NCBI GenBank assembly: GCA_005881695.1 | Contig: VBBT01000108.1 | Span: forward strand, 1-41,161 | DNA: 41,161 nucleotides | DNA from: Candidatus Bathyarchaeota archaeon | GTDB taxonomy: Archaea; Thermoproteota; Bathyarchaeia; 40CM-2-53-6 | Direction of reading: 5' to 3' | Part shown: positions 8,910 through 22,344 of the stretch, piece after piece | How positions within the stretch are numbered: position 1 is the first letter of the stretch | Layout of the letters: the number at the start of each line of letters is the position of its first letter | The notes under the pieces: model-generated | Seen by the model: only the letters and a program-made list of their open reading frames with translations | What the model was told of the DNA's origin: nothing | Databases searched by the model: none | Made by a program: the position numbers and the translations under genes

Positions 8910-9275
8910 ATGAAGACCGTCAACCAGGAAGAACCCGTTGCACGAAGCCGTTTCATCGATTGTCCCGAGTGCAAGACCCATACTCTCAAGCTCAAGAGAA
9001 TAGTCCAAGTTGGGCGATGCAAGAGCTGCCACGAATCATACAAGATCGTGATAGTATATGTCAAGGAAGGAAAGAAACCTAAGCCTGCGACGAAAACAGA
9101 GTCTGCGAATACTGTACCGAGCCCCGACTCTAGCTTGCCATCTTGGCAAGTGCCCTCAGACAGCTCCTTGTTCGGATCTTCCCAAACGGAAACCGATTCG
9201 ATCTTCTCGGATAATAGTTCCATTTTTGGACCGGATGAGCATAACACAGGGACCTCGACTAGTAGCGAACAATAG
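8910..9275 (+). CDS. Small zinc-ribbon protein with Ser/Thr-rich acidic tail
   Basis: 121 aa, ATG start. FIDCPECKTHTLKLKRIVQVGRCKSCHESYKI (about 16-46) is a zinc ribbon with two CxxC pairs. From about residue 60 the chain is low-complexity, rich in Ser, Thr, Pro and Asp, and predicted disordered. The ribbon suggests nucleic-acid or protein binding; no family name can be given. It stands alone, and the repeated intergenic element lies directly downstream. Confidence 0.6.
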   Translation: MKTVNQEEPVARSRFIDCPECKTHTLKLKRIVQVGRCKSCHESYKIVIVYVKEGKKPKPATKTESANTVPSPDSSLPSWQVPSDSSLFGSSQTETDSIFSDNSSIFGPDEHNTGTSTSSEQ

Positions 9276-9320: not shown

Positions 9321-9484
9321 GGCACTCTTGCGTCACGAGATGCTTTGAAACGCACCCCCCTTTTTTTCTGGAAGATTTCCTGTCCGGCAGTGATAATGGG
9401 CGATTCTAGCTGATCAAAGCACGGTCTGGGCTTAGTTGACGTGGAAGTTTGCGCGAGCTATCCCAGTTTTTCCGAACGATTTCT
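9321..9484 (+). repeat. Intergenic repeated element, copy A
   Basis: This non-coding stretch shares ordered blocks with 21076-21247. Block 1 is CACTCTTGCGTCACGAGAT (9323-9341). A C-run then T-run follows (9355-9367), then ATTTCCTGTCCGGCAG and TGATAATGGGCGA (9391-9403), then GGTCTGGGCTTAG (9423-9435), then CCGAACGATTTC (9472-9483). Spacing between the last three blocks differs by no more than 1 nt between copies. Orientation is arbitrary. It lies between two genes that converge on it. The T7 run at 9361-9367 could also terminate transcription from the zinc-ribbon gene. The rest of 9276-9568 shows nothing else. Confidence 0.75.
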
Positions 9485-9568
9485 GGCAGAAATATTGAAG
9501 CCATCCCAGATCCCCAAACAGGGTTCAATCCGGGCTTAGAAGTCAGAATATATTATTGATTACACGAC

Positions 9569-10177
9569 TTACCAGCGGTCGTAGTGGACGACTTTCTCGA
9601 TGGGCTTCCTCTTGGGAGGGCCAAGTCTAATGGCTGGATAGCCAAGATAGACTAGGCATGCGATCTTAACATCGTTTGGGATTCCCAGGATGTTCCTGAC
9701 CTCGGGCTCTCCACGGGTCGGGGTAGACCCGTGAACAGTCAGGCAGGTAACGAGACCTAGCGCCTGAGCTGCTAGCATAAGGTTCTGGACCGCTGGATAG
9801 ATACTCGCATACTTGACCTCCTCACTCTTGCCAACCTTGGTCAAGTCAACGCAGCAATAGATTATGACAGGTACTTTCTCGGTGTTCCGAAGCATATCGG
9901 TAGCCTCGTCATATGCATCCCGCGTCCGAGGAGACATTCCTGGACTGCCTGCCAGCCGTTCCAGCCATGTTCTCAACATAGGCTCCTTGAGACGAGCTTT
10001 CACCTTCGCATCACGAACCACCACAAACTCCCATGGCTGAGTATTACTCCCAGAGGCAGCCTTCGACGCCGACTCAAGAATAATCCGAACCTTGTCCTCG
10101 GCGACTGGGTCAGGCTTGAATTTCCGGACCGATCTAAGAGAGCTGATCCCTTCCAAGACGGTCATCTCTCGCGGCAT
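9569..10177 (-). CDS. Nitroreductase family protein
   Basis: FMN-dependent oxidoreductase of the nitroreductase superfamily. From the ATG at 10177 it is 202 aa. SSLRSVRKFKPDPV (flavin phosphate-binding Arg/Ser region), ASGSNTQPWEFVVV and the C-terminal CLVYLGYPA are family landmarks. A frame extension to 10225 exists, but a TATA box at 10199-10206 places the transcript start at about 10177, so a leaderless ATG there is preferred. Substrate unknown. It is divergent from the HAD gene at 10238. Confidence 0.85.
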   Translation of the reverse strand: MPREMTVLEGISSLRSVRKFKPDPVAEDKVRIILESASKAASGSNTQPWEFVVVRDAKVKARLKEPMLRTWLERLAGSPGMSPRTRDAYDEATDMLRNTEKVPVIIYCCVDLTKVGKSEEVKYASIYPAVQNLMLAAQALGLVTCLTVHGSTPTRGEPEVRNILGIPNDVKIACLVYLGYPAIRLGPPKRKPIEKVVHYDRW

Positions 10178-10198
10178 GTTGAACCGGACTTCGCCTAA

Positions 10199-10206
10199 GG
10201 TTAAAG
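10199..10206 (-). promoter_or_regulatory. TATA box of nitroreductase gene
   Basis: The minus strand reads CTTTAACC, centred about 26 bp before the ATG at 10177. This predicts a leaderless transcript and decides the start codon. Confidence 0.5.
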
Positions 10207-10237
10207 ACTCTCGCGCCCCTAACATAACATCGTCCAG

Positions 10238-21075: not shown

Positions 21076-21247
21076 CACTCTTGCGTCGCGAGATCGAGTC
21101 GCTAAGACCCCCCCCTCCCCTTTTTTGGAGAAAATTTCCTGTCTGGTAGTGATAATGGGCGAGACAGGCGATTCAGGGCAGGGTCTGGGCTTAGATGAAA
21201 AGTCAAAGAAACGGGAAATCAAGAGCCGCTCCCGAACGATTTCAGGG
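21076..21247 (+). repeat. Intergenic repeated element, copy B
   Basis: Counterpart of 9321-9484. Shared blocks in the same order are CACTCTTGCGTCGCGAGAT (21076-21094), a C-run then T-run (21108-21126), ATTTCCTGTCTGG, TGATAATGGGCGA (21150-21162), GGTCTGGGCTTAG (21182-21194) and CCGAACGATTTC (21232-21243). In this copy CCTGTCT (21138-21144) and AGACAGG (21162-21168) form a 7-bp stem that encloses the TGATAATGGG core. It lies upstream of the threonine operon and downstream of a zinc-ribbon gene. Confidence 0.75.
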
Positions 21248-21282
21248 AGTTCTAGGGTGCCACTCCCAGATTCGAGATCAGG

Positions 21283-21306
21283 GCTGATAATGGGTGATTC
21301 TGGCCC
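21283..21306 (+). repeat. Extra core copy of the repeated element
   Basis: CTGATAATGGGTGATTCTGG matches GTGATAATGGGCGATTCTAG of copy A (9390-9409) at 17 of 20 positions. Flanking AGGGC and GCCCT (21280-21284 and 21303-21307) can pair, again placing the core in a loop. Confidence 0.55.
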
Positions 21307-21393: not shown

Positions 21394-22344
21394 ATGATCC
21401 CTGACAACGCAGTGAGGGTCGAGGCCTACTGTTCCACCGCTAATCTTGGAGCCGGCTTCGACGTATTCGGACTAGCCCTCAACAAATACGCAGACAGGGC
21501 ACGAGTCAGGATTACAAATACGGGGATCGTCAGGATCAAAGCCCTGGGACCGTACAGCAGAGAGCTGCCAAGAGCCCCGACGAAGAACTCTGCCGGCCCG
21601 CCAGCCCGAGCCCTACTAGATCGTAGCGGATTGAACACGGGCGTCGAGATAACTATCGAAAAGAACATTCCACCCGGTCTAGGTCTAGGGAGCAGTGGAG
21701 CAACGGCAGCAGCGTGCACCAAGGCCATGAATCATCTGCTACAGCTGGACCTCTCCAACAACGAACTGGTGAGGACCGCTAGCCTCGGAGAAGCCGCCGC
21801 CTCAGGATTCGCTCACCCGGACAATGTTGGAGCATCCCTTCTCGGAGGATTCGTGATCTGCTACGGAAATCCTTTGAGAACCGTTTGTGTGAAACCACCC
21901 GCCAAACTCTCAATTGTCGTCGTCTCCCCGAAAACTCGACTCCCGAAAAACAAGACTGGCCTCGCGAGAAAACTGGTTCCACAGAAGATCGGTGTCAGGC
22001 AAGCGGTCCTCAATATCGGGCATGCATCAGCTATCGCCCTCGGATTCGCTAACGGCGACATAGATCTGATCGGTAGCGGAATGGAAGACGCTATCGCAGA
22101 ACCCTACAGGGAATCCTTGGTCCCAGGATACAGAGCAATGAAGAAGGCCGCACTCGCCAATCATGCAAGCGGAGTCGCAATCAGCGGCGCCGGCCCCAGT
22201 GTAGTAGCATTCGTCGATAAGACAAAGCAAGATCCCAAGAAGATCGCAAGAGTGATGGTCAGAGAATTATCGAAGAACAATGTAGAAGCAACATTCTTCG
22301 TAACGAGCCCGGCTGGCGGAGCCCGCATCATCAGGAGCAGTTAG
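21394..22344 (+). CDS. thrB: Homoserine kinase
   Basis: GHMP kinase that phosphorylates L-homoserine in threonine synthesis. It is 316 aa, ATG start. STANLGAGFDVFGLAL is the N-terminal GHMP block, PPGLGLGSSGA (93-103) the ATP-binding loop, and AISGAGPSVVAF the C-terminal glycine motif. It is the first gene of a four-gene operon, with 5 nt to thrC. Confidence 0.95.
   Translation: MIPDNAVRVEAYCSTANLGAGFDVFGLALNKYADRARVRITNTGIVRIKALGPYSRELPRAPTKNSAGPPARALLDRSGLNTGVEITIEKNIPPGLGLGSSGATAAACTKAMNHLLQLDLSNNELVRTASLGEAAASGFAHPDNVGASLLGGFVICYGNPLRTVCVKPPAKLSIVVVSPKTRLPKNKTGLARKLVPQKIGVRQAVLNIGHASAIALGFANGDIDLIGSGMEDAIAEPYRESLVPGYRAMKKAALANHASGVAISGAGPSVVAFVDKTKQDPKKIARVMVRELSKNNVEATFFVTSPAGGARIIRSS

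Follow-up and report, generated by a model that had tools for sequence, protein, structure and literature searches.

A dispersed intergenic DNA element of soil Bathyarchaeota with conserved addresses and exchanged contents

In the window, i.e. the whole stretch of 41,161 nucleotides analysed here (contig VBBT01000108.1 of Candidatus Bathyarchaeota archaeon), two gaps between genes contain similar sequences composed of conserved blocks and diverged spacers. Three readings had been put forward for them in the original prediction: a structured RNA, a protein-binding element or an old non-coding mobile element. Which of these fits a sequence that occurs at two places of the same chromosome?

The two copies in the window and their family

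The five shared blocks on which the prediction was based were found at both places, in the order claimed and with nearly the same spacing. Its limits (9321-9484 and 21076-21247) were too short by approximately 50 nt at the ends. Since the shared sequence continues to two further blocks, CCCAGATTCGAGATCAGGG and GGGCTGATAATGGGCGATT, the copies are now placed at 9323-9535 and 21076-21300. Their likeness is far beyond chance (blastn E = 4.5e-16), and of the aligned segments one, of 104 nt, is 74% identical and another, of 34 nt, 76%. In its own genome, copy 1 gave 28 blastn matches, 19 of which were used to build a sequence-only model termed R1. The copies, their neighbours and their parts are located as follows:

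9323..9535, + strand: element copy 1 (R1 129 bits, E about 1e-37; same place and orientation in 9 relatives)
8910-9275, + strand: small zinc-ribbon-like ORF, neighbour of copy 1
9569-10225, - strand: nitroreductase gene, neighbour of copy 1
9323..9334, + strand: 5' block CACTCTTGCGTC of copy 1, near-invariant in 19 own-genome copies and in 126 copies
9354..9367, + strand: C-run/T-run block of copy 1, variable in length, in most copies
9391..9403, + strand: block TGATAATGGGCGA of copy 1, strongly conserved
9423..9435, + strand: block GGTCTGGGCTTAG of copy 1, GGGCTT core conserved
9473..9483, + strand: block CGAACGATTTC of copy 1, CGAACGA conserved amid an otherwise variable middle
9505..9541, + strand: 3' block of copy 1, form CCCAGATC..CAGGGTTCAATCCGGGCTTAGAA, outside the limits first predicted
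21076..21300, + strand: element copy 2 (R1 159 bits, E about 6e-47; same place in seven relatives)
21394-22344, + strand: homoserine kinase gene; copy 2 lies in the intergenic gap upstream of it
21150..21162, + strand: block TGATAATGGGCGA of copy 2, placed by alignment
21285..21299, + strand: 3' terminal motif TGATAATGGGTGATT of copy 2, placed by sequence (model positions up to 218)

In most copies, a second version of the TGATAATGGGCGA motif forms the 3' end, and the 3' form CCCAGATC..CAGGGTTCAATCCGGGCTTAGAA is common to most orthologues of copy 1 at the nitroreductase site.

The search for further copies in the genome and in relatives, which had been recommended along with the prediction, turned up many. 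A profile search of the host assembly (2.0 Mb in 182 contigs) with R1 yielded 78 matches, of which 62 scored no less than 57.9 bits. The host genome thus contains at least 62 strong copies of a DNA repeat that is non-coding and approximately 215 bp long. The units are 205-225 bp long, number about 60 per genome and occur singly or paired head-to-tail with a nearly constant linker of 24-28 bp (one exception of 35). The family was detected in every one of the 18 species sampled from the genus (soil Bathyarchaeota; genomes are designated by G numbers, the host being G000) and also in two other genera of the same family, while 17 genomes representing other families of the order and three genomes from other orders of the class gave no match with R1. 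Both in the 19 own-genome copies and in 126 copies, near-invariant columns are grouped in blocks (CACTCnTGCGnCGCGAG, CTGTCTGGC..TGATAATGGGCGA, GGGCTT, CGAACGA and CAGATTCGAGATCAGGGCTGATAATGGGCGATT) beside a freely varying middle. A diverged version, whose 5' and 3' blocks are unchanged, is present in part of the genus (e.g. G002, G003, G008-G011 and G016) and in both other genera. Copies L059-L067 from diverged genomes carry TTGTTTTCTGGGCGA-like forms in place of the TGATAATGGGCGA of other genomes, and their internal and 3' terminal motifs seem to change together. A full-text literature search retrieved no paper describing the element.

Tests for coding sequence, RNA and gene context

The possibility that both regions are decayed copies of one coding gene, named in the prediction as one refutation, was discarded because each of the six reading frames contains two to three stops on average. 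For the structured RNA, the block pattern with its diverged spacers was a point in favour, but none of the tests applied supported it. The folding z-scores of 126 distinct copies had means of -0.10 (forward) and -0.18 (reverse), with 4% of the copies below -2 on each strand. RNAalifold detected one two-sided compensatory pair out of 23 in an alignment of 19 copies. Mutual information in the 126 copies was concentrated in local haplotype blocks and formed no helices; thus, the covariation check that had been proposed ended with covariation tracking haplotypes instead of base pairs. In Rfam, there was no match at gathering scores in the window, nor did either copy give one up to E = 1, in agreement with the initial impression that no known RNA family is involved. 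A riboswitch or leader, against which the occurrence in convergent, tandem and divergent gaps alike also speaks, is hardly credible. Taken together, these comparisons demonstrate an element that appears to act as DNA, neither as coding sequence nor as stably folded RNA.

Signals for transcription were looked for in the base composition around the copies. A general AT-rich promoter peak upstream, at -25 to -35, was absent, and so was a T-rich terminator downstream of the 3' end. A T-rich stretch approximately 25 bp upstream exists in a subset of copies (e.g. TTTACTTTCAC); the signal is weak and confined to these copies, and a general promoter at -25 was rejected. Eight copies (L024, L025, L028, L030, L032, L035, L104 and L119) have additional sequence of approximately 35 bp in common on their upstream side (GGTTTACTTTCAC..GTCCGGA), with the T-rich part near -25. 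Genes for small non-coding RNAs that lack a stable structure and act by linear motifs would be compatible with the conserved linear blocks, the C-run/T-run and the upstream T-rich stretch of the subset. On the other hand, neither a general promoter peak nor a terminator, folding excess, covariation or an Rfam match to E = 1 was seen, which makes this reading improbable, albeit less so than a structured RNA.

Neighbouring genes were called with a simple codon-usage gene finder that had been tested on the window. Among the elements with two reliable close neighbours, 13 were located in convergent, 18 in tandem and 9 in divergent gaps. The median distance is 68 bp to a gene 3' end and 100 bp to a start codon, and the start codon nearest to any element is 42 bp away. 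Because start codons are at least 42 bp distant and all gene orientations occur, the element is neither a promoter in general nor a dedicated terminator; a leader/promoter element and a 3'-UTR terminator were rejected alike, since gaps of all three kinds are occupied. Regularly spaced chromosome markers were dismissed on the basis of the spacing, whose coefficient of variation is 0.78. The remark that both copies in the window follow genes for zinc-ribbon proteins is correct, but the association does not extend beyond chance, as two or more CxxC motifs are present in only 8 of the 62 genes that face a copy with their 3' end; a link to zinc-ribbon genes was consequently rejected. In two species, an element lies directly downstream of the end of a putative tRNA gene (L127 in G005 C31, GGGTTCAAACCCCGCCCGAGGCTCCA; L115 in G000 C7).

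Conserved addresses, exchanged contents and inversions

At the thrB site, all eight genomes whose homoserine kinase is at least 77% identical have an element approximately 93 bp upstream of the gene, while it is missing in three genomes with a 59% identical homoserine kinase. Homoserine kinases of 77-79% identity belong to Candidatus Bathyarchaeota archaeon isolates BA_x and to Crenarchaeota archaeon 13_1_40CM_3_52_17. The nitroreductase site, next to the stop codon of the gene, is occupied in 10 of 13 genomes, always in the same orientation, by one unit or by two (G004, G006 and G013). G017 combines a short gap with a truncated zinc-ribbon gene, as a deletion would give. Most orthologues at this site (L148-L157) keep a site-specific 3' end, GGGTTCATTTTGGGCTTAGAA, with a replaced interior. 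Among 30 sampled sites of G005, 22 match a site of the host by their flanks, a few of them by one flank only; this is probably a lower bound because the comparison covered part of the sites of a host genome that is itself incomplete. The matched flanks often stop just a few bases short of the element, and the spacing is the same or nearly so (e.g. 17/17, 28/26 and 12/12 bp). These comparisons show addresses which, judged from their flanks, have been passed on among species with 70-86% identity in the flanking DNA. The number of elements varies, with one or two per site and some sites lost. Since it is not strictly constant, no single copy looks essential.

What is found at the addresses follows another rule. 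Elements at the same site of the host and G005 are 0.54-0.82 identical, mostly about 0.7, and hence no more alike than elements at different sites (mean 0.71, sd 0.04). The close pair G001/G007 is particularly instructive. At its thrB site, the gene is 97% and the 90 bp between element and gene 98% identical, but the element 72%. In 39 pairings matched by flanks between these two genomes, the elements were in part 0.93-0.97 identical and evidently unreplaced, in part 0.66-0.81 and evidently replaced, the flanks of the latter being near 90-97% identical right up to the element; along the elements, identity indicates replacement in patches. Donors can also be pointed out. The identity of the G001_C98 element is 96% with a paralogue at a different G001 site and 77% with its orthologue, and the corresponding values for the G007_C33 element are 93% and 77%. 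In the host, five distant sites harbour near-identical copies that agree almost completely in the 3' half and fall into two types by the 5' half; for three of the five sites (L111, L114 and L115), flank-matched counterparts with unlike contents exist in G005. Circulating mosaic contents at old sites are the signature of ectopic gene conversion. These data thus show a process that, as far as alignments can tell, overwrites the contents of an element from other copies, in patches ranging from some tens of bases to the full element.

Inverted copies, moreover, serve as breakpoints for the inversion of segments, as is apparent from the alignment of G007 C33 (L249, 38000-49820) with G001 C194 (L250). 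The two contigs are collinear outside two inverted elements, the segment of about 5 kb between them is inverted, and both breakpoints fall at the inverted element copies. Identity within this segment is 75-82% compared to 90-92% on either side of it, so an exchange with a different lineage may have taken place as well. A further inversion between inverted copies (G007 C96, L251; G001 C272, L252; G001 C161, L253) is probable, the parts being on separate contigs. All genomes are fragmented metagenome assemblies in which some contig ends fall at elements, and caution is advisable with short-read assemblies holding many similar copies of 215 bp. Misassembly may have occurred at similar copies, above all in recently homogenised groups, whose elements are 92-100% alike and thus in the range where short-read misjoins happen. 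This error is less of a danger for those swaps that were recognized on long contigs, where an element of low identity lies between highly similar flanks.

Possible function and relationship to known repeats

Of the three original readings, a protein-binding element fits best, inasmuch as the element seems to operate at the DNA level; the binding itself is suggested by the conserved blocks. We consider it probable that the family is a dispersed non-coding DNA element in gaps between transcription units which acts at the DNA level and is bound by protein as part of the chromosome. The conserved linear blocks would be the places where one DNA-binding protein, or several, make contact. Such contacts would make the elements interchangeable and worth keeping: selection would retain an element at each address, and any copy could take the place of any other. 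As to the role, our preferred guess is that the element organises the chromosome or insulates adjacent transcription units from each other. The block conservation, on the other hand, could partly reflect recent homogenisation instead of selection. A more far-reaching proposal, that the elements are interchangeable sites at fixed addresses, held there because selection favours a function in DNA binding, chromosome organisation or insulation, kept compatible with one another by ectopic gene conversion and used as exchange points for inversion and replacement of the genes between them, is tentative.

The main rival is a fossil transposable element, i.e. an old, inactive repeat devoid of present function that spread in an ancestor and has been homogenised by homologous recombination since. 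It would account for the many dispersed intergenic copies, for tandem duplication and deletion at sites, for the strongly evidenced gene conversion and for the restriction to one lineage. The third original reading, an old mobile element, survives in this functionless form; classical mobility is not supported, given also that positions are conserved between species. The ends of the element score 4.79 for terminal inverted repeats against 5.15 (sd 0.98) in shuffles, and at 158 sites flank matches were 2.70 against 2.98 for random pairing, which argues against a target duplication; a MITE was rejected on these grounds. Y1_Tnp (RAYT), the transposase family searched for, was absent from all 18 genomes although positive controls were detected. 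Together with a unit of 205-225 bp that shows no folding excess on either strand, this led to the rejection of a RAYT/REP system. With regard to a related autonomous transposon, the own-genome R1 matches listed are near full length or lone fragments, and no pair of ends was seen around a gene, the transposase search being one for Y1. An origin from a virus or plasmid was also rejected, as blastn gave no match in phage or plasmid records and the 3' block no exact match in viral contigs. What speaks against a functionless repeat is that the occupancy of addresses, kept over 20-25% flank divergence, is explained less simply, and that neutral homogenisation does not predict constraint limited to a few blocks with a free middle. 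We therefore regard the fossil as rather unlikely, though better placed than small RNA genes. The site of a dedicated site-specific recombinase, mediating cassette exchange or inverting segments, would agree with an exchange confined to the element and with the inverted copies that flank an inverted segment in one case and probably in a second. However, the endpoints of exchange differ by site and can cover part of the element, as in homologous gene conversion, and no recombinase was recognised adjoining either copy in the window. It is a very improbable explanation, ranking between small RNA genes and a structured RNA.

How does a probably protein-bound element compare with known repeats? Prokaryotic dispersed intergenic repeats are usually mobile palindromes whose places differ between species. 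ERIC/IRU sequences of enterobacteria are known for their palindromic structure, and chromosomal roles have been proposed for REP/BIME/REPIN sequences. The nearest in anatomy are the STAR elements of Staphylococcus, intergenic direct repeats present at 32-39 loci per S. aureus genome, with one or more units per place and places that are stable within the species (PMC3532100). They consist of short motifs with spacers, the archaeal element of one 215-bp unit. In their behaviour the two are opposite: STAR elements share no place between species, and their locus-specific sequences are stable and distinct (PMC3532100), whereas the archaeal element shares places between species (22 of 30) and exchanges sequences. 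ERIC/IRU, classed as MITEs (PMC10969869), resemble it in being intergenic, 100-200 bp long and present in tens of copies that require no coding capacity, but the archaeal element lacks terminal inverted repeats and folding excess. REP/BIME/REPIN with RAYT are likewise dispersed, intergenic, modular and often located between transcription units; REPs are palindromes of 20-40 bp (PMC3733652), while the archaeal element contains no palindromes and is not accompanied by Y1_Tnp in 18 genomes. The Sulfolobus MITEs SM1-SM4 are archaeal dispersed non-coding repeats with tens of copies per genome, and MITEs are mobilised in trans by autonomous elements (PMC10969869). By contrast, the element of approximately 215 bp lacks both terminal repeats and a target duplication, and its addresses are conserved. 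Because STAR elements behave in the opposite way and both MITE features and Y1 are absent, it belongs to the broad kind of dispersed intergenic repeats and to no named family.

With respect to its evolution, the closest parallel is the long-lasting concerted evolution of prokaryotic genes reported for 26 genes (PMC6053082), in which paralogues are homogenised within a genome and orthologues diverge. There, genes are concerned, here about 60 non-coding dispersed sites per genome. The archaeal family reverses the usual pattern of such repeats, in that places persist and contents circulate, and the keeping of a site and the keeping of a sequence, normally confounded, become separable. Approximately 60 replicate sites per genome in some ten comparable species make gene conversion measurable and offer a starting point to search for a chromosome-organising protein in uncultured archaea.
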